A DNA stretch of 64,000 nt from Selenomonas dianae (GTDB lineage: Bacteria; Bacillota; Negativicutes; Selenomonadales; Selenomonadaceae): positions 320,001 to 384,000 of the forward strand of contig NZ_CP128650.1 of assembly GCF_030644225.1 (NCBI RefSeq). The letters are read 5' to 3'. Position numbers and translations under genes: made by a program. The notes under the pieces are model-generated. The model made no database searches. It was given only the letters and a program-made list of their open reading frames with translations, and was not told the DNA's origin. Shown here in pieces: positions 3,865 through 23,286 of this stretch (its first letter is position 1; each line of letters opens with the position of its first letter).

Positions 3865-4101
3865 TTAGTATTCGCCCCACTCTTCGTAGTAGTTGCCGTC
3901 CGCATCCTCTGTGTGGACAGCGTAGTTGCCATCCTCGTCCACGGCTGCAACAGTGACGTTGCCGTCGTCGTCCACCTCGGCATAGATGTAGTTGCCGTCC
4001 TCGTCATAGCCCTCGTACTCATCTGCCGAGGCGACACCCATCGTGCCCAGCATGAATGCGCACGCGCCCATTACTGCAAATGCCTTAAACCAATTTTTCA
4101 T
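3865..4101 (-). CDS. Small exported acidic protein with four 11-residue DxDGN repeats
   Basis: A 78-residue protein. Residues 1-26 are a Sec signal peptide (MKNWFK, hydrophobic core, VASA before the predicted cut). The 52-residue mature part has GN at mature positions 10-11, 21-22, 32-33 and 43-44, an exact 11-residue period, each preceded by an acidic D-x-D-type triplet (DED, DDD, DED, DAD). Nineteen of 52 residues are D or E and there is no K or R. The DxDG pattern suggests calcium or other cation binding, but that is inference. The start follows AAAGGAG on the minus strand. Its promoter has the same direct-repeat operator as the lipoprotein operon at 6841, so it is probably controlled by the adjacent LytTR system. 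I do not recognise a named family. It could be an effector, a signal precursor or a cell-surface protein. Confidence 0.8.
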   Translation of the reverse strand: MKNWFKAFAVMGACAFMLGTMGVASADEYEGYDEDGNYIYAEVDDDGNVTVAAVDEDGNYAVHTEDADGNYYEEWGEY

Positions 4102-4145
4102 GATGATCTCTCCTTTGTCAACAACCATGATTGCCCTTCGCGTTC

Positions 4146-4215
4146 ATTATTGCAAAAAGCCGAAAAAATTGCAATAGGATTTAAGAAAGTGATGAAATTA
4201 TACATGAAAGTGATG
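4146..4215 (-). promoter_or_regulatory. LytTR-type operator and promoter of the small exported protein
   Basis: Read on the minus strand: two CATCACTTTC direct repeats (4206-4215 and 4185-4194, 21-bp period), a 10-bp gap, -35 TTGCAA (4169-4174), a 17-bp spacer and -10 AATAAT (4146-4151). On the other strand the half-site reads GAAAGTGATG, similar to the ACAGTTAAG-type half-sites bound by LytTR regulators in pairs one to two helical turns apart. The arrangement is identical in every spacing to the element at 6648-6717. Confidence 0.78.
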
Positions 4216-4219
4216 TGTT

Positions 4220-5581
4220 TTAGGAGTGATTCTCAGAACCTTGATTGAGTGGGATCTGTATGAGAAAGCGGAAGTATCCGTCTTTTTGCTCGGTGAAAAA
4301 TTCGGCATGGTATTTCTTTGCGAAGATTTCGATGGAGCGTGTTCCGTAGCCGTGTTCGGCGGCATAGCTTTCACGGCGGGGCAGACCGTTTGCGGACAGT
4401 CTGACGGAGATGGAGCAGCGGTTCTCGATGGAGAGGAAGATGCTGCCTCCCGCCGTGCGTGCACGGACGCGGATGCCGCGTGCATTTTCTGCCTCGCGTT
4501 CCTCTGCGTGTATGGCGTTTTCGAGGAGGTTGCAGAGCAGGAGGGAGAAGTCGAGATCTCCTGTGAATGCAGGGGGGGTGTCGATCTTTACGTCGATGGG
4601 AATTTTTTTGGCACGCGCCTGCCGGACATAGACGGCGAGGGCGGAATCCACCATGGGGTTTTCTGCAAAGTGCTCGACGCTGGTTGCGTCGATCTGATGG
4701 TTGAGACTGCGGACGAGCTGTATCGCCGTTTCATCCTCGCCGCGTGCGATGAGATCTGCGAGCATTTTCGCGTTGTGCCTGAGGTCGTGGCGGACGATGG
4801 CGAGGCGTGCCTGTTTTTCCTGTAGGGAGCGCGTATAGGCGCGGAAGGAGTTCATGCGTCGCAGGAGAGCAAGGCTGCGCTCGGTCATCGCCGCCTGCTG
4901 AAGGATGTGTTCAAGTCCGCGCCATGCGACCAGTCCGATGACGATTCCCGCGGCGGCAAAGAGCAGGCGGGAGATAAAGAAGTCGAGTGCGACCACCTTA
5001 TCCCCGACCGAATGGAATGTCTCACGATAAAATACGAGGAAGGGCAGCGGGGCGATATAGAGCCAGAAACGTTCCGTACTGACGGAGGAAAAGCGCAGGA
5101 AGATTTGACGGAAGAAGGGCAGAACGAGAGGAAAGGTCAAAAGATAGAGGGTGAGGTAGAGCAGAAAGAACAGATAAACATAATCGAAAAAATGGGCAAT
5201 GCCGACAAGGAAGAGCGTGATGATGGCGGCGCATGTGCCGGTTGTGGTGGCGAGAATCTGCTGGATCCCGAGGATGAACGCGTGCTGCGCCCAATAGGGG
5301 CGGATGAGGGCGAGGTTGAGGGCGAAGTAGGGCGCATAGCCGGCAAAAAAATAGATGCGCTTGTAGGTATCCATGGTGTAGGGAAGCAGGTCCGAAAAGA
5401 TGAGCAGCAGGATCAGGCTGTTCTCACAGAAGAAGATGATCGCATACCCATGCAGCAGGGAGCTTCTCGTTTCGTCGCTCAGGACGGGGCGGAACGGGAG
5501 GTAGCGCAGATAGACGGACGGCAGCATTGTCACGGTAAACAGAAATGTTGAAACGACAATCGTCAAACTATGTTCGAGCAT
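4220..5581 (-). CDS. GHKL sensor histidine kinase (AgrC/CitA-like), partner of the LytTR regulator
   Basis: A 453-residue membrane kinase. Residues 1-225 contain about six or seven hydrophobic segments with short loops and no obvious extracytoplasmic sensor domain, as in peptide-sensing AgrC-like kinases. An H-box follows with H265 in IVRHDLRHNAK, then the N-box CNLLENAIHA (N351, N355) and a GYG-containing ATP lid in the HATPase_c_5-type domain. It would autophosphorylate and pass phosphate to the LytTR regulator encoded divergently. The start is the ATG at 5581 behind AAAGGGAAG. Family B repeat lies just upstream, between the two divergent genes. The ligand is unknown. Confidence 0.9.
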   Translation of the reverse strand: MLEHSLTIVVSTFLFTVTMLPSVYLRYLPFRPVLSDETRSSLLHGYAIIFFCENSLILLLIFSDLLPYTMDTYKRIYFFAGYAPYFALNLALIRPYWAQHAFILGIQQILATTTGTCAAIITLFLVGIAHFFDYVYLFFLLYLTLYLLTFPLVLPFFRQIFLRFSSVSTERFWLYIAPLPFLVFYRETFHSVGDKVVALDFFISRLLFAAAGIVIGLVAWRGLEHILQQAAMTERSLALLRRMNSFRAYTRSLQEKQARLAIVRHDLRHNAKMLADLIARGEDETAIQLVRSLNHQIDATSVEHFAENPMVDSALAVYVRQARAKKIPIDVKIDTPPAFTGDLDFSLLLCNLLENAIHAEEREAENARGIRVRARTAGGSIFLSIENRCSISVRLSANGLPRRESYAAEHGYGTRSIEIFAKKYHAEFFTEQKDGYFRFLIQIPLNQGSENHS

Positions 5582-5598
5582 GGCTTCCCTTTCTTTTA

Positions 5599-5760
5599 GG
5601 AAGCACTGATAAATTCAGCCGCGCCATCTTAGCGCATCTTTTTTGCCCGCACTTCGTCGGCAAATCCTCCACATAGCTTTGGCTATGCGTCCGGTTTGCC
5701 TTCTTGTTCGGACGAAAAAATCTACGCCAATCTGACGGACTTCATTTTATCAGCGATTCC
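5599..5760. repeat. Family B palindromic repeat, full-length copy
   Basis: A 162-bp element whose ends are imperfect inverted repeats (GGAAGCACTGATAAA at the left; the right end reads GGAATCGCTGATAAAA on the other strand). The two halves pair almost throughout, ending in a central hairpin with CATAGC/GCTATG around 5671-5690. It sits in the divergent gap of the kinase and regulator genes. No coding capacity is seen. Related ends occur near 6727, 23260, 30885 and 48008. Confidence 0.8.
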
Positions 5761-5765
5761 TTTAG

Positions 5766-5794
5766 TTTCCATTCACATTATTTTGTGGTATTAT
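5766..5794 (+). promoter_or_regulatory. Possible promoter of the LytTR regulator gene
   Basis: An extended -10 (TGG then TATTAT, 5789-5794) is preceded 17 bp upstream by a weak -35 TTTCCA (5766-5771). It directly follows the family B repeat. No GAAAGTGATG-type half-site is visible here, so autoregulation through the same operator is not supported. Confidence 0.45.
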
Positions 5795-5852
5795 ACGATG
5801 TGATATAAGATTCGTCAAATCTATAGGTGTGTCAAGAAAAAGAGGCCGAGCG

Positions 5853-6584
5853 ATGCGGATTGCGATTGTGGATGATGAGCCGGAGGTTTGTGGGGTGGTA
5901 CGTGACTATCTCACACATATTCTGGAGAAGTATTGGGCGGAAAAGGCGGCACAGATGGAGGTGGAGGTCTTTGACTCTGCCGAGTCTGTTCTGGAGGTGT
6001 TTGAGCATCGGACTTACGATCTCCTCATCCTCGATATACGTATGCCCGGCATCGGCGGGATGGAGGCGGCGCGGCGCATTCGCAATCAGAGCAGTGATGT
6101 CGGCATTATTTTTCTCACGAGCAGCGAGGAATATCTGATGGAGGGCTACCGCGTCTTTGCCGACGGCTATTTTCTGAAAACTGAGGGCATGGACGAGGAG
6201 GGCTTTCGCGCAGCACTGGCGCGCGTGTTGGAACGCCGTGAAAAGGCGGCGCGTGTGCTCAAGGTTCAGTACAATGGGCAGCCGCTTGAAATCCTCTTGA
6301 ACAAGATTTACTATGTCGATCTCTCGGGAGGGCGGCTGCACATTGCGCTTGCAAAGCATGATCTCTGTCTCACGCGCCCCTATACTTACGACTGGGCGAC
6401 GGAGCAGCTTGGACATGATCCGCGCTTTTTGGAGTGCTACCACCGCGTTCTGGTGAATATGGACGTGATCGAACGCATGGACAAGGAATCATTTGTCCTT
6501 ACCAACGGCGCGGAGATCCCCATCAGTCAGCGGCGCCGCAGCGGTGTGCGGACGTCATATATGCAGTATTTGCTGAACAAGTAA
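5853..6584 (+). CDS. LytTR-family response regulator
   Basis: A 243-residue regulator. Residues 1-120 are a receiver domain with acidic D7-D8 (IAIVDDEP), phosphoacceptor D61 in LILDIRMPG, and the conserved T/S and K region near FLTSSEE and YFLKTE. Residues about 135-243 form a LytTR DNA-binding domain (YYVDLSGGRLHI, CYHRVLVNMDVI, ISQRRRSGV). The ATG at 5853 is preferred because it begins MRIAIVDDE; a GTG 24 bases upstream is possible. It is divergent from its probable kinase. The two identical direct-repeat promoters on either side of this gene pair are its likely targets. Confidence 0.92.
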   Translation: MRIAIVDDEPEVCGVVRDYLTHILEKYWAEKAAQMEVEVFDSAESVLEVFEHRTYDLLILDIRMPGIGGMEAARRIRNQSSDVGIIFLTSSEEYLMEGYRVFADGYFLKTEGMDEEGFRAALARVLERREKAARVLKVQYNGQPLEILLNKIYYVDLSGGRLHIALAKHDLCLTRPYTYDWATEQLGHDPRFLECYHRVLVNMDVIERMDKESFVLTNGAEIPISQRRRSGVRTSYMQYLLNK

Positions 6585-6647
6585 ATAAGGCTAAAGTCCT
6601 AAAAAGCGGCGTTTGCGTAAAAAACCCGACAGTTTTCAACAAGAATG

Positions 6648-6717
6648 CATCACTTTCATGTTAGAATACATCACTTTCTGCAATATCGTTGCAGAAAGTT
6701 CTTTTTTTTGCAATAAT
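6648..6717 (+). promoter_or_regulatory. LytTR-type operator and promoter of the lipoprotein/protease operon
   Basis: Two CATCACTTTC direct repeats (6648-6657 and 6669-6678) with a 21-bp period, a 10-bp gap, -35 TTGCAG (6689-6694), a 17-bp spacer and -10 AATAAT (6712-6717). All spacings equal those of the element at 4146-4215, and both have the same orientation relative to their gene. Two independent occurrences at fixed geometry make chance unlikely. That the regulator is the adjacent LytTR protein is inferred. Confidence 0.8.
6673..6709 (+). terminator. Terminator of the regulator gene, embedded in the next promoter
   Basis: ACTTTCTGCAA (6673-6683), a five-base loop and TTGCAGAAAGT (6689-6699) form a perfect 11-bp stem followed by eight T. 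The left arm overlaps the second operator half-site and the right arm contains the -35, so read-through from the regulator would end inside the downstream promoter. Confidence 0.75.
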
Positions 6718-6726
6718 TAGTCCGAG

Positions 6727-6754
6727 GGAATCGCTGAATTTATCAGTGCTTTCC
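6727..6754. repeat. Collapsed family B repeat
   Basis: Twenty-eight bases joining the two family B ends (GGAATCGCTGA, then ATTTATCAGTGCTTTCC) without the central palindrome. It lies at or just after the predicted transcription start of the lipoprotein operon. Confidence 0.65.
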
Positions 6755-6755
6755 G

Positions 6756-6805
6756 GGGAAAAGACCGCAGATGCATCCGGTCAGAAATGACCGTGGTCTT
6801 TTCCC
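6756..6805 (+). other. Long hairpin in the leader of the lipoprotein operon
   Basis: GGGAAAAGACC near 6756-6766 pairs with GGTCTTTTCCC at 6795-6805, enclosing an inner CGGTCA/TGACCG hairpin. No T-run follows, so it is not a simple terminator. It could stabilise or regulate the leader RNA, or be remnant repeat sequence. Confidence 0.6.
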
Positions 6806-6840
6806 GATGATTCCTCTGTAGTAAAGGAGAAGTTAGGATT

Positions 6841-7503
6841 ATGAGAACATTTATGCGGGCAAAGAGATTGCTTCTTCCCATGATTGCGATTTTGGCGACG
6901 CTCCTCGTTGCGGGCTGCGGCGACGACAAGCCGAAGGAGTCGGCGGACAAGGCGGTGCTTGCCTACGCCGAGCTCTATGCGTATGCCGATACGGACAAGC
7001 TCTCTGCGACGGGCATGACGAATGCGCAGAAGGAGCAGATTTCGCAGGCTCTTTTGACGGAGTCGGATCAAATGTTCCAGAGCTTTATGCTTTCGGAGGC
7101 CAATGCGATGGAGATCACGGACTACTACATTGCAGACCGCAAGGCGAATATGGAGCTCAAGGCAAAGGTCAAGAAGGATGATGCCAAGAATCCCGTGGTT
7201 GAGCTGACGGCGACGCCGATTGATACGCGCGGCGCAAAGCAGCAGATGGACAAGAATGAGGATCTGGTTGCGATGGGGGTCTACATCGGTCTTGCACAGC
7301 AGCAGGGTGTGGATGTGCGTACGGATCCCGTATACCAGCAGGGCGCAGTGGAGTCGCTCAAGGGCGTGATCGACGATATGCCGTATGACAGCGAAAAGAC
7401 GCTGGATGTGACGTGCGAGCTTGTCAAGAGCGACGACGGCAAGGCTCTCTACTGGGCGCCGAAGGATCCGCAGGTGATCCGTAAGTTCCTCGACGGGGAG
7501 TAA
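6841..7503 (+). CDS. Exported lipoprotein of unknown function (DUF5105-like)
   Basis: A 220-residue protein with a lipoprotein signal peptide: basic start, hydrophobic core and lipobox LVAGC, acylated cysteine at about residue 26. The mature part is rich in A, K and D, with helical stretches and no catalytic motif that I can see. Its length and general pattern suggest the DUF5105 group of Firmicutes lipoproteins, held with low certainty. AAAGGAG lies about 9 bases before the ATG. It is the first gene after the LytTR-type promoter and probably heads a four-gene operon. Confidence 0.8.
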   Translation: MRTFMRAKRLLLPMIAILATLLVAGCGDDKPKESADKAVLAYAELYAYADTDKLSATGMTNAQKEQISQALLTESDQMFQSFMLSEANAMEITDYYIADRKANMELKAKVKKDDAKNPVVELTATPIDTRGAKQQMDKNEDLVAMGVYIGLAQQQGVDVRTDPVYQQGAVESLKGVIDDMPYDSEKTLDVTCELVKSDDGKALYWAPKDPQVIRKFLDGE

Positions 7504-7537
7504 GGGTCGTTCTGCTTTCGGAAAGGAGTCATGAATC

Positions 7538-9526
7538 ATGCTGACTGCGATGCGTGTGCTGCGGTCTGTCCTTGGTATGTTCCTTCTTGTGCTCGTTCTC
7601 TCGGGCTGTATGGATGAGGATGTGACGAAGGCGCGTGCGCAGTTCCCCGATGCCTACGAAAGGGATGATACATGGCTCGTTTCGTGGTACATCTGCGGCT
7701 CGGATCTTGAGTCGGAGTACGGTGCGGCGAGTGCGGATCTGGAGGAACTGATGGAGGCGGATCTGCCGCCGAATGTGCGCGTGCTGATCCTTGCGGGCGG
7801 CACGCAGGAGTGGCAGAACGATACGTTTACGAGATCTCTCAATCTCTATCTCTACGATGCGGACGGCCTGCATGAACTTGAGCGGATGAAGGATGCGGAT
7901 ATGGGCGATCCGCAGACACTCGCGCAGTTTCTGCGCTACGGTGAGGAGCACTATCCTGTCGATCACCGTGTCTTTGTGTTCTGGGATCATGGCGGTGGGA
8001 GTGCGGCGGGGGTCTGCGCCGATGAACGCACGGAGAATATGCTGCGCCTCAACGACTTGCGGCAGGCATTCTCCGCTGTCTACGGTGCACATCCGGCCGT
8101 TCCGCCCTATGAGCTCGTCGGCTTCGATGCCTGTCTGATGGCAAGCTATGAGACGGCGGCGACACTCGAAGGTTTTGCCCGCTACATGGTCGCCTCGGAG
8201 GAGATGGAGCCGGGCAACGGGTGGAACTACGATGCGTGGCTCGGGGCGCTCGCCGACAATCCCGCCATGGGCGGTGCAGGGCTTGGCTCGGTGATCTGCG
8301 ATACGTACCTTGCGGGCTGCAGGGAGGCGGATACGGAGGAGGAGGCGACGCTCTCCGTGATCGACCTTGGGCGTCTGCCCGCACTCACATCCGCATATGA
8401 GGCTTACAGTCGCGATGTGCTTGCCCGTGCGGCGCATCTGTCTCCGGCGTTCTTTGCGGCACTTGACCGTGCGGCGCAGCGTGCGGAGAACTACGGCGGC
8501 AATACGCGCGAGATGGGCTATACGAACATGGTCGATCTGGCGGGGCTGGCCGAGGAGACGGCGCGGGAGTTTCCAAGTGCCGCCGCCCTTGTACGAGCGG
8601 TGGAGGATGCGTGCATCTACAAGGTGCATGGCGACTACCGTCGCCGTGGCGGCGGCATCTCCTCCTACTACTCCTACGATGGCGATGCGGACGGCTTTGC
8701 GGCGTATGCGGATCAGGATGCGGCACTGATGGCGCAGAAATGTCTGCTCTACACCATGCTCTATGGACAGCTGCCCGATGAGGCGGAGGAGTTCCTCGCG
8801 GGACGCGGCAACGTGGAACGCATCAGTGCGCCGCCGACGCAGCGGAAGCCGATCTTCCGTGTCGACGGGCTGGAGGATCGCGCGGTCGATGTCGATCGCC
8901 GCGGCAATGCTTTTGTCCGTCTCAGTCCGGCGGAGATGGATATGCTTTCGTCTGTTCGGTGCAATCTGCTTTACATCGGTGCGGAGGAGGGGGTTATTCT
9001 CTACCTCGGCAGTGATACCAACGTCGATGCAGATTGGGACACCGGCGTTTTCAAAGACAATTTTGACGGTACATGGCCGATGCTGGACGGGCATCCCGTC
9101 TACATTGAGATCGTGGAGGAGGGGGACGACTACAATCTTTACTCCATCCCGATCAAGCTGAACGGGATGGAGTGCAATCTGCAGATCTCCTACCGTTATG
9201 AAGATGGGCAGTATCACATTCTGGGCGCCCGCCGGGGGCTTGATGCCCATGGGATGAGCGACCGCAATCTGATCCGCCTGAAGCCCGGGGATATGGTGAC
9301 GACGATTCACTATGCAATGAGTATCTCGGGCGAGGAGGAGGACTTCACGCCTGTGGAGGTCGATACGTTCCGCCTCGGCAGTCATCCCGTGGTGCGGGAT
9401 GAGGAGGTCGGCGACGGAACATACGGCTATCTCTTTGAGTTCGTTGCACCTGCGGGCGAAAGTGCGCTTTCGAGTTTTGCCATCTTCGAAATCGAGAATG
9501 GCGATATTGTGACATCGGTTGAGTGA
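7538..9526 (+). CDS. Clostripain-family (peptidase C11) lipoprotein
   Basis: A 662-residue predicted lipoprotein; the lipobox VLSGC places the acylated cysteine at residue 24. The C11 catalytic dyad is visible: H151 in FWDHGGG and C199 in VGFDACLMAS, 48 residues apart. This is followed by the conserved SEEMEPGNGWNY segment. It should be a cysteine protease anchored on the outer face of the inner membrane or in the outer membrane; clostripain itself cuts after arginine. The residues after about 420 form a beta-rich C-terminal part of unknown role. GGAAAGGAG precedes the ATG and the gap to the upstream lipoprotein is 34 bases, consistent with one operon. Its co-regulated neighbour, the small acidic exported protein, has no K or R in its mature part, so it is probably not a clostripain-type substrate. 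Confidence 0.9.
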   Translation: MLTAMRVLRSVLGMFLLVLVLSGCMDEDVTKARAQFPDAYERDDTWLVSWYICGSDLESEYGAASADLEELMEADLPPNVRVLILAGGTQEWQNDTFTRSLNLYLYDADGLHELERMKDADMGDPQTLAQFLRYGEEHYPVDHRVFVFWDHGGGSAAGVCADERTENMLRLNDLRQAFSAVYGAHPAVPPYELVGFDACLMASYETAATLEGFARYMVASEEMEPGNGWNYDAWLGALADNPAMGGAGLGSVICDTYLAGCREADTEEEATLSVIDLGRLPALTSAYEAYSRDVLARAAHLSPAFFAALDRAAQRAENYGGNTREMGYTNMVDLAGLAEETAREFPSAAALVRAVEDACIYKVHGDYRRRGGGISSYYSYDGDADGFAAYADQDAALMAQKCLLYTMLYGQLPDEAEEFLAGRGNVERISAPPTQRKPIFRVDGLEDRAVDVDRRGNAFVRLSPAEMDMLSSVRCNLLYIGAEEGVILYLGSDTNVDADWDTGVFKDNFDGTWPMLDGHPVYIEIVEEGDDYNLYSIPIKLNGMECNLQISYRYEDGQYHILGARRGLDAHGMSDRNLIRLKPGDMVTTIHYAMSISGEEEDFTPVEVDTFRLGSHPVVRDEEVGDGTYGYLFEFVAPAGESALSSFAIFEIENGDIVTSVE

Positions 9527-9541
9527 GGAGGGGGTACGTCC

Positions 9542-9946
9542 ATGGCAGAAATTTATGTGGAGGGCGATGTGCGCGGAGGCGGTACAGGAGACTCTGCGGA
9601 TGCCGTTCCGCCGCAGTCGACGCGCATGATCGCCGCCGCCGTGCAGGGCGCATTTTTCATCGGCGGGATCGGGTTTGTCCTTCTCCCGTTTGTTGTCTGG
9701 ATCGTCATGCGGGGCAGGAATGTATTTGTCGCACATCATGCAAAGCAGGCGTTTCTCTCGCAGCTTTCGGTATTTATTCTATTCGCTCTTTCCTGTATGC
9801 TGGGGGCGGCACTCGACGATGCCTATATCGCGGTCGGGCTGTGCTTCCTCGTCGGGATTCCGTGGTGTCTCGCCTCTGTCTATGCCGTGGTCAAGGCACT
9901 CTCGGGCGAGCGTTGGCATTTTCCGGGGCTCGGCTGGGCGGCATAA
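9542..9946 (+). CDS. DUF4870-like membrane protein
   Basis: A 134-residue protein with a polar N-terminus of about 25 residues and three or four hydrophobic segments (about 30-55, 70-90, 95-125). The pattern AHHAKQAFLSQ between segments is typical of DUF4870 proteins, where a histidine/glutamine pair follows the first helix. Function unknown. It starts 15 bases after the protease stop, with GAGGAGGGGG as ribosome site, so it is almost certainly translated from the same message. Confidence 0.82.
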   Translation: MAEIYVEGDVRGGGTGDSADAVPPQSTRMIAAAVQGAFFIGGIGFVLLPFVVWIVMRGRNVFVAHHAKQAFLSQLSVFILFALSCMLGAALDDAYIAVGLCFLVGIPWCLASVYAVVKALSGERWHFPGLGWAA

Positions 9947-9979
9947 TATGGAACTTATTTATCATTTGGAGGTATTGTT

Positions 9980-10222
9980 ATGAGTAAGAAAAGTCCTGTC
10001 CTTGGGGCAATCCTTGGTTTTTTCATCCTCGGTTTATTTTATAGCACGGGCTTCAACAAGAAGGGTGTGATCGCGGTCATTGCCCTCGTGTTCGTCAGCT
10101 GGGGCGTGGGGCTCGCGAGTCCGGAGCTGTCCACCATCGTTGCTGTCATCGGTGCGTATCTCGGTTACAAGTGGGTGAACGAGCACAACGCCATGGTGGA
10201 AGAAGGAACGTCTGCGGAATAG
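9980..10222 (+). CDS. Small two-helix membrane protein
   Basis: An 80-residue protein with a glycine-rich first hydrophobic segment (LGAILGFFILGLFY) and a second at about residues 29-60, ending in a polar tail. I do not recognise a family. TGGAGG precedes the ATG. It is the last gene of the putative LytTR-controlled operon and is followed by a strong hairpin at 10300. Confidence 0.75.
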   Translation: MSKKSPVLGAILGFFILGLFYSTGFNKKGVIAVIALVFVSWGVGLASPELSTIVAVIGAYLGYKWVNEHNAMVEEGTSAE

Positions 10223-10355: not shown

Positions 10356-12374
10356 TTGCGATATTCTTTGAAACGCCTGGCAGCGGCGTCTCTTTTTGCG
10401 TTGGCAGTAAATTTTTACGCCCCGTCGGTTCATGCGATGCCGCCGATTCTCCCGTACAGCGAGGTGACGGCGGGGATGCAGGGGACGGCATATACCGTGC
10501 TCGATGCCTCGGGGGAGATTCGCGCGTTCCCCGTTGAGATCCTTGGGGGCATGGAGGGCGGCAAGGGCGATCAGCGGATGATCATGGCGCGTACGGGCGG
10601 CGATTTTATCGAGCAGGTCGGCGGCGTGCTCCAGGGGATGAGCGGCAGTCCGGTCTATGTGGACGGACGGCTTGTCGGTGCGCTCTCTGCGGGGATGAAG
10701 GATCTCAGCCCCTATACGTTCTTCATCACGCCGATTGAGGATATGACACCGCTCTGGTCGATGCCCGATACGAAGAATCAGACGAATATTGATACGGTCG
10801 ATCTGGTGAAGGCGGTCGAGGAGCGCAAGAAGGCGGAGGAAAAGCGCCGTCTGCGTGAACGTGAAAAGGCGTTTGCCAAGATGTCGCGCGACGAGCGCGA
10901 AGCCGAGTGGCGTGATATGATTGCGGCACTGAACGGTGAGAAGGCGGAGGGAACAGCGGCGAACGCCGATGAATCCGCACCGACCAATGATGATGCTGCT
11001 GCACGTACGGACAACAGTGCTGCCGAGGATACGGCGGCGCAGTCAGCAGACGCATCGGAGGAGAAGGCGTATTTCTTTACGCGCGGTTTTAACGGGGCGG
11101 GGCTGCGCTATCTGCAGGACAAGCTTCCGATGCATGGCGCTTCCCTCCTTCCGCTCAGCGGCTCCGGTGCAGCGACGAAACTCTATACGCGCTATGATGC
11201 GGCGCTCACGGGCGGGCAGCCGGTCGGGGTGGCGCTTGTCTACGGCGATTTCAGTGTCGGTGCGACGGGAACGGTGACGGCGGTCGACGGGAAGAAGGTT
11301 CTGGCGTTCGGGCATTCCTTCCTGCACAAGGGGAATGTCAACTACTTCATGACGGATGCGGATGTGGTCGGTACGATCGCAGGGCAGAGCAACGGTGTGA
11401 AGATCGCGAACATCGGCAGTGTGATCGGGCGCATCCATCAGGATCGCGAGACGGGGGTCGCGGGGGTGCTCGGGACGTTCCCGACCTCCGTGCCGGTGCA
11501 GATCCATGTGAAGGATAACGCACTCGGCAAGGAGGAAACATTCGGCGCACATATCGCCTATGACGAGGAACTGCTTCCGATTCTCTCGGGGAGTGTCGCG
11601 TATGCGGCGATGAGCCGCGTGTCGGATGCGCTCGGCAGCAGCACGGCACGCGTGCGCTTTGCGATTCGGACGAATGCCTACGAGGGCGGTGTCTTTGAGC
11701 GGCGCAATATGTATTACAGTGCGGCGGATGTGGGGCAGATCGCGGTGACGGAGCTGCTGCAGGCGATGAACCTGATCGTGACGAATGCGGAGCAGGAGTC
11801 CGATGTCATTGATGTCAATGTGGATGTGGAACTGGATGGCGAACGGCAGACGGCACTGCTTCTTTCCGCAGCGCCGGATAAGACGTCGGTAAAGCCCGGG
11901 GACACGGTGATGTTCCAAACGAAGATCCGTCCCTACCGCAAGGCGGAGGAGACGCTGTCGATTCCGTATACGGTGCCAAAGACCCAGCCGGCGGGAACGC
12001 TGCATCTCGATATTCGCGGCGGCGGCTTTGTGCCTGTGAATCCACTGATGCTGCTCGCACAGGCGGGGCTTGAGGTTCCGGACGACGAGGAGAAGGTGAA
12101 ATCGACGGGCGACCGTCTGCGCGAGATGGCGGAGATGGGGCAGAACAATGAGATCATCATTGCGCCGGGGGCAGCTCCCGCACCGACCTCCGAGAAGGAG
12201 ATGAAAAAGCGCATGAGGGCTGCGGAAAAGGCGGCGGCACGCGCAGCGAAGGACGAGCCGGAGAAGCGTGTGACGCTTCTCGCCGATCCGAACAAGAAGG
12301 AAGAGAAGGAAAAATTCTTCGCACCGTATGTGATCGAGAATGTGATACACGCAACGCTCAAGGTAGAGGAATAG
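10356..12374 (+). CDS. SpoIVB peptidase S55 domain protein
   Basis: A 672-residue exported protein. Residues 1-27 are a signal peptide ending VHA. The S55 domain has GMSGSPVYVDGRLVGA (94-109) with the putative nucleophile serine, and later AFGHSFLHKGNVNYF around residues 316-330, supplying a histidine. In this branch the serine motif precedes the FGH motif. Residues about 150-245 are a charged, low-complexity insert rich in A, E, K and D. The C-terminus is beta-rich with another charged tail. The start is TTG at 10356, directed by GAGGTG. True SpoIVB acts in sporulation, and nothing else here suggests sporulation, so an envelope-maintenance role is more likely. murA follows after 21 bases, suggesting co-transcription. 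Confidence 0.85.
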   Translation: MRYSLKRLAAASLFALAVNFYAPSVHAMPPILPYSEVTAGMQGTAYTVLDASGEIRAFPVEILGGMEGGKGDQRMIMARTGGDFIEQVGGVLQGMSGSPVYVDGRLVGALSAGMKDLSPYTFFITPIEDMTPLWSMPDTKNQTNIDTVDLVKAVEERKKAEEKRRLREREKAFAKMSRDEREAEWRDMIAALNGEKAEGTAANADESAPTNDDAAARTDNSAAEDTAAQSADASEEKAYFFTRGFNGAGLRYLQDKLPMHGASLLPLSGSGAATKLYTRYDAALTGGQPVGVALVYGDFSVGATGTVTAVDGKKVLAFGHSFLHKGNVNYFMTDADVVGTIAGQSNGVKIANIGSVIGRIHQDRETGVAGVLGTFPTSVPVQIHVKDNALGKEETFGAHIAYDEELLPILSGSVAYAAMSRVSDALGSSTARVRFAIRTNAYEGGVFERRNMYYSAADVGQIAVTELLQAMNLIVTNAEQESDVIDVNVDVELDGERQTALLLSAAPDKTSVKPGDTVMFQTKIRPYRKAEETLSIPYTVPKTQPAGTLHLDIRGGGFVPVNPLMLLAQAGLEVPDDEEKVKSTGDRLREMAEMGQNNEIIIAPGAAPAPTSEKEMKKRMRAAEKAAARAAKDEPEKRVTLLADPNKKEEKEKFFAPYVIENVIHATLKVEE

Positions 12375-13691: not shown

Positions 13692-13740
13692 ATGGAATTT
13701 ATGCGATAGAATGAAAGAATCGACGGAGGAGGAATGCGTT

Positions 13741-13878
13741 ATGAAGCACATCAAGACGGTCAACAAGCCGACGATGCAGTCCACGCTCTACACGGGCGGC
13801 TGCGGCGAATGTCAGGCATCCTGCCAGTCTGCCTGCAAGACTTCCTGCACGGTGGGCAACCAGCCCTGCGCGAAGTAA
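13741..13878 (+). CDS. scfA: SCIFF (six-cysteine in forty-five) ranthipeptide precursor
   Basis: Exactly 45 residues with six cysteines (C21, C24, C28, C32, C36, C43) in the C-terminal half. The leader MKHIKTVNKPTMQ and core GGCGECQASCQSACKTSC match the SCIFF family almost perfectly. A radical-SAM enzyme is expected to install thioether links from cysteines. A strong ribosome site (GGAGGAGG) precedes the ATG. The maturase gene is downstream at 14191, but a terminator and a family A repeat lie between them. The function of SCIFF products is not established. Confidence 0.96.
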   Translation: MKHIKTVNKPTMQSTLYTGGCGECQASCQSACKTSCTVGNQPCAK

Positions 13879-13895
13879 GACGGGGGAATCGGCAC

Positions 13896-13925
13896 AGCCC
13901 TTCTCGTTTGCGAGAGGGGCTTTTT
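13896..13925 (+). terminator. Terminator after the SCIFF precursor
   Basis: AGCCCTTCTCG and CGAGAGGGGCT flank a four-base TTTG loop and are followed by five T. It could limit maturase expression relative to the peptide. Confidence 0.85.
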
Positions 13926-13947
13926 CTGTGTATTTTGGGTCTACGTC

Positions 13948-14152
13948 AAATGTTACTTGCGGACGCACGAGCTCCTCGCAGAACCCTCGTTACGCAAGCG
14001 GTCAGGCACTTATCTGCCGAAATACCTGCGGATTTCAAACGCGCTTCGCTTGGACGGTCAAAATCCGCAGGGGGCAGAACGTGCCTTCTCTTCCGCTTGC
14101 TCCACTAGGGTTTGCTACGGAGCATCGCCGTCCGCATTCCTCTGTAACATTT
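13948..14152 (+). repeat. Family A palindromic repeat, copy 1
   Basis: The outer inverted ends are AAATGTTAC (13948-13956) and GTAACATTT (14144-14152). Within them is a 153-bp core (13971-14123) bounded by GCTCC/GGAGC. The core is an imperfect palindrome with internal stems GGCAC/GTGCC and GCGGATTT/AAATCCGC. It contains the family marker CACTAGGGTTTGC (14103-14115). Orientation is opposite to copies 2 and 4. Confidence 0.85.
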
Positions 14153-14190
14153 ATCATAGAAGCTGTATTTTATGGTGTAAAGGAGAAGCG

Positions 14191-15561
14191 ATGAAAACCC
14201 TCACGCATAAGTTCAAGCAGAACGGTATGCACATTCTCGTTGATGTGAACAGCGGCGCGGTTCACGTGATTGACGCGATGATTTACGATATGATGGACGA
14301 CTTCGACGGCACGAACGACGAGGCGGTCGTTGCGCGTCTTGCGGGGCGCTATCCCGAGGCGGAGCTGCGCGAGGCGTGCGGGGAGCTGCATGAGCTGATG
14401 GCGGCGGGCGCGCTCTTTGCGCCCGACATCGACGTGCCGCCGACGTTCAAGTCGCACGGGCTCGTGAAATCGCTGTGCCTGATGGTGGCGCAGGACTGCA
14501 ATCTGCGCTGCAAGTATTGTTTCGGCGACGGCGGCAGCTACGGCGGACATCGTGCCGTCATGAGCCCCGAGGTCGGGCGTGCGGCGGTGGACTTTATCGT
14601 GAACGGGTGCGGCCCGCGCAAGCACTGCGAGATCGACTTCTTCGGCGGCGAGCCGCTGATGAATCTCGGTACGGTAAAGGAAGTCACAGCGTATGTCCGC
14701 AAGCGCGAACAGGAGACGGGCAAGGAGTTCAAGCTGACGCTGACGACGAATGGGATGCTTCTCTCGGACAAGAACATCGCGTGGCTGAACGACAACAACA
14801 TCTCCGTTGTGCTCTCCTCGGACGGCCGGCGCGAGGTACACGATGCGATGCGTCCCGATGTGCGCGGCAACGGCTCGTACGATGTGGTGATGAAGAATTT
14901 CAAGAAGCTCGTGGATGCACGCGGCGGAAATGACTACTATCTGCGCGGGACGTACACGCGTGAGAATCTGGACTTTACCGAGGATGTGCTCGCGATGAAC
15001 GAGGCGGGGTTCGACATCCTCTCCATGGAGCCGGTCGTGCTGAAGGACAGTCCGCTCGGCTTTACGGAGGAGGATCTGCCGCGCATCTTCGCCGAGTACG
15101 ATCATCTGACGGAGACGTACCTCGGTCGCGTGCGTGCGGGAAAGGGGTTCTTCTTCTTCCACTTCAATATGGATCTGAACCACGGTCCGTGCGTTGCGAA
15201 ACGGCTCGCGGGCTGCGGCGCAGGACATGAGTATTACGCCGTCGCGGAGAACGGCGACCTCTATCCGTGTCATCAGTTCGTCGGGCGCGAGAGATACCGC
15301 CTTGGGTCTGTCTTTACGGGCGTGGAAAATATGGAGCTGCCGACCTATTTCCGCAATTCTCATGTGCTCAATAAGCCGCTCTGCCGTGACTGCTGGGCAC
15401 GGTTTTACTGTAGTGGCGGCTGTCATGCGAATGCCGATCTCTTTCACGGAGACATCCGCCATCCCTACGAAGTCGGTTGCGAGATCCAGAAGAAGCGGCT
15501 TGAGTGCGCGATTCTCGTGCAGGCGGCACTCGCACTGGAGACGGAAGAAGGGACGAAATAA
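14191..15561 (+). CDS. scfB: SCIFF radical-SAM maturase with SPASM domain
   Basis: A 456-residue enzyme that would form thioether crosslinks in the SCIFF peptide. Residues 1-90 resemble a peptide-recognition region. The radical-SAM cluster motif is C103-x3-C107-x2-C110 in QDCNLRCKYC, followed by FFGGEPL. A C-terminal SPASM region binds auxiliary iron-sulfur clusters (CGAGHEYYAVAENGDLYPCH, then CRDCWARFYCSGGC). The start is the ATG at 14191, behind AAAGGAG. An upstream in-frame extension would translate the family A repeat and is rejected. It is normally the immediate neighbour of the precursor; here a terminator and repeat separate them. Confidence 0.96.
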   Translation: MKTLTHKFKQNGMHILVDVNSGAVHVIDAMIYDMMDDFDGTNDEAVVARLAGRYPEAELREACGELHELMAAGALFAPDIDVPPTFKSHGLVKSLCLMVAQDCNLRCKYCFGDGGSYGGHRAVMSPEVGRAAVDFIVNGCGPRKHCEIDFFGGEPLMNLGTVKEVTAYVRKREQETGKEFKLTLTTNGMLLSDKNIAWLNDNNISVVLSSDGRREVHDAMRPDVRGNGSYDVVMKNFKKLVDARGGNDYYLRGTYTRENLDFTEDVLAMNEAGFDILSMEPVVLKDSPLGFTEEDLPRIFAEYDHLTETYLGRVRAGKGFFFFHFNMDLNHGPCVAKRLAGCGAGHEYYAVAENGDLYPCHQFVGRERYRLGSVFTGVENMELPTYFRNSHVLNKPLCRDCWARFYCSGGCHANADLFHGDIRHPYEVGCEIQKKRLECAILVQAALALETEEGTK

Positions 15562-23259: not shown

Positions 23260-23286
23260 GGAATCGCTGAATTTATCGGTGTTTCC
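23260..23286. repeat. Collapsed family B repeat
   Basis: Twenty-seven bases joining family B ends (GGAATCGCTGA then ATTTATCGGTGTTTCC), two bases after the wecB stop. Confidence 0.6.

Follow-up and report, generated by a model that had tools for sequence, protein, structure and literature searches.

A paired direct repeat at a LytTR two-component locus of Selenomonas dianae and its predicted surface-adhesion and envelope regulon

The locus and its flanking promoters

A divergent two-component locus of Selenomonas dianae lies in a 64,000-nucleotide stretch of contig NZ_CP128650.1 (positions 320,001 to 384,000; hereafter, the window) and consists of the genes for a GHKL sensor kinase and a LytTR response regulator, bracketed by two outward-facing promoters that are each preceded by the same paired direct repeat (Table 1). 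The minus-side promoter faces the gene for a small acidic exported protein, and the plus-side promoter faces an operon that encodes a lipoprotein, a clostripain-family protease and two membrane proteins. An earlier note, made from the sequence alone, had named the kinase, the regulator and both flanks, and these gene calls were upheld by Pfam matches and by reading of the open reading frames (ORFs).

Table 1. Genes, promoter elements and repeats of the locus, in window coordinates
Feature	Positions	Strand	Remarks
Small exported acidic protein of 78 aa, putative target of the site on the minus side	3865..4101	minus	
-10 hexamer AATAAT	4146-4151	minus	read in the sequence
-35 hexamer TTGCAA	4169-4174	minus	read in the sequence
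Paired direct repeat CATCACTTTC-N11-CATCACTTTC, proposed regulator site	4185-4215	minus	exact in the sequence
Multi-pass GHKL (HATPase_c_5) sensor kinase	4220..5581	minus	PF14501, 50.5 bits
MITE-like repeat element between the kinase and regulator genes	5597..5762	no strand	outside the regulatory core
Receiver and LytTR response regulator, 243 aa	5853..6584	plus	PF00072, 71.4 bits; PF04397, 25.3 bits
Paired direct repeat CATCACTTTC-N11-CATCACTTTC, proposed regulator site	6648-6678	plus	exact in the sequence
-35 hexamer TTGCAG	6689-6694	plus	read in the sequence
-10 hexamer AATAAT	6712-6717	plus	read in the sequence
DUF5105-like lipoprotein, first gene of the plus-side operon	6841..7503	plus	21.7 bits, below the cut-off of 30
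Clostripain-family (C11) protease	7538..9526	plus	139.9 bits; lipobox-like N-terminus (by eye)
DUF4870 membrane protein	9542..9946	plus	44.7 bits
Membrane protein, 80 aa	9980..10222	plus	no Pfam match above the cut-off

The kinase has the features of an AgrC-type GHKL protein: hydrophobic segments within residues 2-224 give it a multi-pass N-terminus, its HATPase_c_5 domain is recognised by Pfam, and the stretch RHDLRHN, which we take to be the His box, is invariant across five sequences. In the regulator, D7, D8, D61, T89 and K109 are invariant in six aligned sequences and presumably represent the acidic pocket, the phospho-Asp, the Thr and the Lys of a receiver domain. Its C-terminal LytTR domain scores narrowly above the Pfam cut-off (22.6 bits), and the domain is over the cut-off in all five orthologs found in relatives (genomes G005, G006, G011, G042 and G063). 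Against the PDB, the 60 matches listed of 64 covered mostly the receiver domain, and 4cbv (ComE) spanned both domains (query residues 54-228). The acidic protein carries a signal peptide followed by about four 11-residue DxDGN(Y/V) repeats, as judged by eye. It had no match when the locus proteins were scanned against Pfam, and its family gave only weak Pfam matches (best E 0.035). The mature part is modelled as five short beta strands with DxDGN turns (block-mean predicted local distance difference test, pLDDT, 84-88 over residues 31-78), and a fold search with the protein returned no structural match at E <= 0.001, the weaker matches being given no functional reading. Signal peptide included, the whole protein is 72-88% identical to the window copy in five relatives.

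Both flank promoters, which point outward from the kinase and regulator genes, consist of the repeat pair, 10 bp, TTGCA(A/G), 17 bp and AATAAT. The earlier note had described them as identical, a description that fits their geometry, their 10-mers and their -10 elements; the 11-bp spacers and the -35 elements differ. The pattern CATCACTTTC-N11-CATCACTTTC occurs only at these two places in the window even when up to three mismatches are allowed, and it was absent from 100 shuffled sequences. Published LytTR sites are composed of two 9-11-nt repeats with 11-13 nt between them, according to the available part of one report (PMC4847170), and an excerpt of another describes the repeats of LytTR Regulatory Systems as strongly biased to a position 10 bp before the -35 element (PMC6193735). 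By this standard, the 10-nt repeats, the 11-nt gap and the 10 bp to the -35 hexamer have the form of a LytTR cognate site.

Distribution of the sites in the genome and the genus

The earlier note had proposed a genome-wide search for the paired repeat. Over the 2,391,311-base contig (genome G000), CATCACTTTC-N11-CATCACTTTC with up to three mismatches matched seven times, five of them beyond the window, and the reversed pattern did not match. A degenerate pattern returned 14 rows (reversed control, 0), namely the seven sites, two shifted copies of the flank sites, one shifted copy of the site at 1318635 and four others with three mismatches, which were dropped. The site at 1318635 precedes genes for a ShlB/FhaC-type transporter of two-partner secretion (TPS; PF03865, PF08479) and a 1538-aa TPS exoprotein with YDG repeats, and that at 2162226 precedes a gene for another TPS exoprotein of 1276 aa; both exoproteins carry the PF05860 domain expected of such systems. 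An autotransporter gene (PF03797) follows the site at 2304508. Behind the site at 1390433 lie genes for a 560-aa protein without a Pfam match, a UDP-sugar dehydrogenase, a polysaccharide deacetylase and a PilZ/GT2 glycosyltransferase, and an Ion_trans channel gene begins 326 bp downstream of the site at 1224714. Instead of the two-target mirror locus that had been described, this genome holds a predicted seven-site regulon of mostly surface and secretion genes.

The autotransporter gene behind 2304508 has a peculiarity of its own. Its start codon and a signal-peptide-like stretch lie in different frames around a run of nine C residues (L008, ~2648-2656), and such a run resembles those of phase-variable surface genes.

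A protein search of 150 relatives recovered regulator orthologs in three genomes of the genus (G011, 85% identity; G006, 79%; G005, 73%) and in two of another genus (G063, 60%; G042, 59%). Within the genus, sites were found in 4/14 genomes, exactly those with the regulator or an ortholog of at least 73% identity, and in none of the other ten (reversed control, 0/14); the one-sided Fisher test gave p = 0.001 for four genomes that may share descent. Twenty-six genus sites were accepted (G000, 7; G005, 11; G006, 3; G011, 5), the 26th being a weak site with two mismatches at 2285747 of G005. They precede genes for the acidic protein (5 sites), the lipoprotein operon (4), clostripain (1), the polysaccharide operon (2), an autotransporter (1), the channel (1), a TPS exoprotein (5), a TPS transporter with its exoprotein (3) and a second type of TPS transporter (3), and the weak site lies upstream of another site (1). 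In G011, the second transporter type holds its ShlB (PF03865) and POTRA matches, and the first 1000 aa of the next protein have no Pfam match. G005 encodes clostripain at a second, kinase-free locus, where the acidic protein and clostripain genes diverge from a back-to-back pair of sites; in all four genus genomes, both genes stand behind sites. The earlier note would have been contradicted by a repeat that is common and unrelated to LytTR loci. As it turned out, 18/26 genus sites lie off the locus, yet there are none in the ten genomes without this LytTR protein.

In the other genus, G042 and G063 have two accepted sites each, on the outer flanks of the kinase and regulator pair, with the 21-bp period kept; their words have diverged, the second halves reading CCACTTTC, CCACTTTT or ACACTTTT. 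Both flank sites are kept in six genomes of two genera, and the flank genes of G042 and G063, encoding the acidic protein and the DUF5105-like lipoprotein, are homologous to those of the window. Their clostripain homologue is reduced to a C-terminal domain of ~218 aa, which aligns with query residues 444-659 only, and has lost the protease domain (G063, L211 11082-11942; G042, L212 6278-7141). In G042 and G063, the 500 bp upstream of one TPS transporter gene and of each of two channel genes hold no CACTTT pair. Since the flanks carry the only accepted sites in G042 and G063, the two flank promoters may be the older core of the system, with adhesin genes recruited later in the genus. The proposal that one LytTR regulator acts through the repeats on both flanks is well supported by a motif that follows the ortholog, by the kept flank sites and by the match to published LytTR geometry.

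The genus also contains a second LytTR family, ~32% identical to the regulator, which is the sole LytTR protein over the cut-off in G001, G004, G007, G008 and G012. It is unlikely to own the motif because these five genomes have no exact sites and because the repeat at its own promoter differs: TGTCATAAACG/TGTCATGAACG with a 20-bp period, found before its gene by script at 2/6 loci and, in imperfect form, by eye at the other four. In three genomes without the ortholog, a CACTTT pair was sought within 500 bp upstream of one TPS or autotransporter gene each and was absent from all three (0/3). At the two script-detected loci, the second-family repeat reads TGTCATRAACG. TPS, autotransporter or channel genes lie near the second-family loci (L246-L251) in 5/6 genomes, none having been seen in L247.

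Outside the genus, the first pattern with one mismatch matched in 4/136 genomes, and its reversed control in 2 (G129, G132). A shorter pattern, again with one mismatch, gave one match in G007 and reversed-control matches in G003, G008 and G009 (one each); the genus control without mismatches was 0. Several candidates were rejected: 122454 of G007 (one mismatch), 72885 of G006 (two mismatches, adjoining an ORF read as an IS3-type transposase), 1868442 of G011 (two mismatches), 285714 of G063 (one mismatch, not seen in G042 and pointing to the 3' end of a paralogue gene), overlapping tandem copies in G034 and single one-mismatch matches in G044, G054 and G142.

Related regulators elsewhere in the family

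Among the 77 family genomes outside the genus, 23 are regulator-bearing, that is, have a protein match stronger than ~1e-30. Paired CACTTT words with periods of 19-23 bp were sought around 23 more distantly related regulators, which come from 21 genomes and share 34-42% identity with that of the window, and around six paralogue loci. The 29 regions, several of which lack a pair and are short or at contig ends, contained 15 pairs (reversed control, 0), distributed over 12/23 distant-relative regions and 1/6 paralogue regions. In G032 and G015, a CACTTTT pair lies directly before the regulator gene. Genome-wide, CACTTTT-N13-CACTTTT was present in 12/17 regulator-bearing genomes (40 sites; reversed, 5) versus 5/54 without the regulator (6 sites; reversed, 2), a co-occurrence with p = 2e-6, uncorrected for descent. 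The count covers 17/23 regulator-bearing genomes, G042 and G063 having been searched with other patterns, and it keeps two pairs that look stray (G070, C15:361735; G082, C20:3667).

At the 30 family sites with a locus, the next gene, named partly by eye, encodes a DUF5105-like lipoprotein (4), an autotransporter-like protein (8), a TPS transporter (1), a TPS exoprotein (1), a channel (1), the regulator itself (2), a receiver-HD_5 protein (3) or a homologue of the 80-aa membrane protein (1), and nine sites have no clear target gene. The eight autotransporter-like assignments comprise three by BLAST to the autotransporter of G000, one by a Pfam AIDA domain and four by a similar start seen by eye; a 1104-aa protein of G082, one of those matched by BLAST, has no Pfam match. 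The lipoprotein homologues behind CACTTTT pairs in G082, G089, G015 and G073 are 43-45% identical to that of the window, and in G082 and G089 the lipoprotein gene is followed by a clostripain homologue (54% identical). The TPS transporter behind a pair in G032 has ShlB and POTRA matches, and Pfam gave no match within the first 1000 aa of the exoprotein that comes after it. Adhesin genes in these genera seem to have been placed under related regulators separately from the recruitment in the genus.

CACTTTT pairs precede receiver genes in G062 (L223 4088-5152), G028 (L241 6816-7856) and G088 (L242 4062-5141). Of these, G062 and G028 were tested and both have an HD_5 domain, a hint of a connection with c-di-GMP turnover. 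In G039 (L275), a genome of another genus, the gene next to a pair encodes a homologue of the 80-aa membrane protein, and one for an exported acidic-repeat protein of 90 aa follows; the arrangement resembles, by eye, parts of the window locus.

Promoter geometry was compared across these sites, apart from two CGCTTT sites of G005, after removal of duplicates (28 reduced to 15 in the genus, G042 and G063; 29 reduced to 24 elsewhere). A -10-like hexamer begins exactly 34 nt after the second CACTTT at 12/15 sites of the former set and at 10/24 of the latter, the latter count becoming 14/24 when the hexamer is taken as TA...T. At offsets other than 33-35, the corresponding background means were 0.10, 0.28 and 0.78, with maxima of 2, 2 and 6. 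A looser hexamer also has a peak at offset 4 (18/28), inside the TGCAAT that is conserved behind the repeat. The -35 hexamers differ from site to site. The spacing has exceptions: three TPS promoters and the plus-flank promoters of both G042 and G063 place the -10-like hexamer one base off, and no promoter is recognisable at the weak G005 site.

Proposed regulation, alternatives and known systems

The positions of the sites, the geometry of the promoters, the co-occurrence of sites with the regulator and the identities of the targets are direct observations. From them we infer, with a probability of about 80%, that the LytTR two-component system is a transcriptional activator of a surface-adhesion and envelope regulon in these diderm Firmicutes; this inferred part extends to phosphorylation, DNA binding, the preference for activation over repression, the order of evolutionary events and the signal. 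The multi-pass kinase would sense an extracytoplasmic cue and phosphorylate the regulator, a step suggested because the receiver residues are conserved. The regulator would then bind two (C/T)(A/G)TCACTTTC copies, 21 bp apart and side by side on one face of the DNA, at a site centred ~60 bp before the transcription start and 10 bp before an often non-consensus -35 element. RNA polymerase would be recruited there, as the position of the site and published LytTR systems suggest. Predicted targets in G000 are the acidic exported protein, the lipoprotein/clostripain operon, the TPS adhesins, the autotransporter, the polysaccharide operon and the channel gene.

Several observations weigh against this activator reading. 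The genus co-occurrence may reflect common descent of the four species, and chance matches arise once one mismatch is allowed (G007, and the controls G003, G008, G009, G129 and G132). In the family, 5/17 regulator-bearing genomes lack a CACTTTT pair, the sole pair of G070 looks stray, 5/54 genomes without the regulator have one or two pairs, nine of the 30 sites face no clear target, and the count leaves out G045, G057, G071 and G084. The LytTR domain of the window barely exceeds its cut-off and was missed by a six-frame genome search, so other divergent LytTR proteins of the genome could have been overlooked. The channel gene, at its distance of 326 bp, may be the remnant of a lost TPS operon, an idea that stems from the site at 2161k of G011, where a TPS pair is followed by a channel gene. 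It is weakened because a homologous channel gene sits behind a CACTTTT pair in G082.

The absence of a site between the kinase and regulator genes, and the presence of only the two outer sites in the window, would also fit a paired CATCACTTTC that belongs to another transcription factor and merely counts the neighbours of the LytTR pair among its targets. We consider this unlikely, given that the motif follows the LytTR ortholog (4/4 genomes with it versus 0/10 without), that the same core word occurs at the loci of related regulators in several genera, including directly before the regulator gene in two of them, and that the geometry equals that of LytTR sites in the available parts of PMC4847170 and PMC6193735. 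If the regulator instead repressed its targets, surface genes would be kept off until a signal arrives, and DNA-binding response regulators are known to act both ways. However, the sites lie upstream of the -35 element rather than over the promoter, and a variable -35 with a mostly fixed -10 position is the layout of activated LytTR promoters, as far as the excerpts of PMC6193735 and PMC2838878 describe it, which makes repression quite improbable. A purely local circuit, in which the distant sites are functionless copies of promoter DNA, would account for G042 and G063, where the flanks carry the sole accepted sites, and some distant sites are indeed copies: those at 695k and 1760k of G005 share the promoter sequence of 2162k in G000. 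Yet spacers, -35 elements and surroundings differ across target classes while the -10 spacing is mostly kept, and homologous targets keep their sites (the TPS pair in G000, G005 and G011; the polysaccharide operon in G000 and G005; the second TPS transporter in G005, G006 and G011), so that we regard a local circuit as very improbable.

A further question, compatible with the activator reading, concerns the signal, which may be a peptide, envelope damage or another cue. The AgrC-type kinase, the position of the acidic protein and clostripain genes behind sites in four genus genomes, and their divergent two-site pair away from the kinase locus in G005 would suit agr-like quorum sensing in which the acidic protein, or a fragment made by clostripain, is the signal of the kinase. 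This seems rather unlikely to us: the eight locus proteins scanned include no AgrB- or AgrD-like match, the acidic protein, unlike fast-changing pheromones, is 72-88% identical to the window copy in five relatives, and G042 and G063 keep the kinase but lack the protease domain of clostripain. A speculative and rather unlikely extension of the activator reading is a family-wide LytTR signalling class of diderm Firmicutes with a self-sensing loop, which the regulated acidic DxDGN-repeat protein would form together with the lipoprotein and clostripain. Cells would sense the state of their own surface through the exported protein, as processed by the protease, and would switch their whole programme of adhesins, autotransporters and matrix in response; each genus would have fitted adhesins of its own into a common promoter slot.

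Among known systems, agr (AgrC/AgrA) and other LytTR peptide-sensing systems share with this locus an AgrC-like multi-pass GHKL kinase, a LytTR regulator and repeats about two helical turns apart. Unlike in agr, the kinase and regulator genes here are divergent rather than co-linear, and the targets are outer-membrane secretion systems; a scan confined to eight proteins of the locus gave no match to an AgrB protease or an AgrD precursor, which define an agr locus. The closest parallel is VirS/VirR of Clostridium perfringens, which likewise pairs a sensor kinase with a LytTR-type regulator but uses another DNA word. In the part of the VirR report available, the repeats lie immediately before the -35 element, a scattered regulon was predicted from the boxes, and of the VirR targets, alpha-clostripain alone was conserved in every strain that the study tested (PMC2838878). 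That source also gives 7-8 nt between its boxes, depending on definition, and the targets that it names are toxins, enzymes and regulatory RNAs, in contrast to the two-partner secretion systems and autotransporters found here (PMC2838878). In LytTR Regulatory Systems such as HdrRM/BrsRM of Streptococcus mutans, the two direct repeats of a pair are in most cases 12 bp and at times 11 or 13 bp apart, and they typically lie 10 bp before the -35 element, as excerpted from PMC6193735. These systems consist of a LytTR regulator and an inhibitory membrane protein, whereas the present regulator has a receiver domain and a divergent kinase, which sets it outside that class. In Escherichia coli YpdA/YpdB, a LytTR regulator binds a 10-nt direct repeat at its target promoter, but the repeat word is another and the target named in the consulted part of the source is yhjX, not adhesins (PMC4847170). 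No account of this LytTR/adhesin system was found in the LytTR, Selenomonas and Negativicutes literature searched, as judged by titles and the openings of abstracts. LytTR circuits are best known from Gram-positive bacteria; here, such a circuit is apparently wired to outer-membrane secretion systems, and other adhesin types stand behind similar sites elsewhere in the family. For this predicted master switch, the DNA word is now exactly defined, the targets are listed and paralogues serve as controls. How the regulon grew might be traced by comparing G042 and G063, which have the two flank promoters, with the four genomes of the other genus, which have between three and eleven sites each.

Some further features accompany the locus. 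The element between the kinase and regulator genes resembles a miniature inverted-repeat transposable element (MITE) of ~160 bp with imperfect terminal inverted repeats; a minimal copy lies at ~6727-6756 and further ends near 23266, 30895 and 48008. Another copy, apparently flanked by TTAG, separates the 2162226 promoter from its TPS gene and is not present at the near-identical promoter of G005. A match to SpoIVB-type S55 peptidases at 10356-12374 adjoins the locus and occupies the same place in G006 and G011. Farther along, positions 13734-15561 hold a gene for a short Cys-rich peptide followed by one for a radical-SAM-like protein, a pair that we take to resemble a SCIFF peptide and its maturase.

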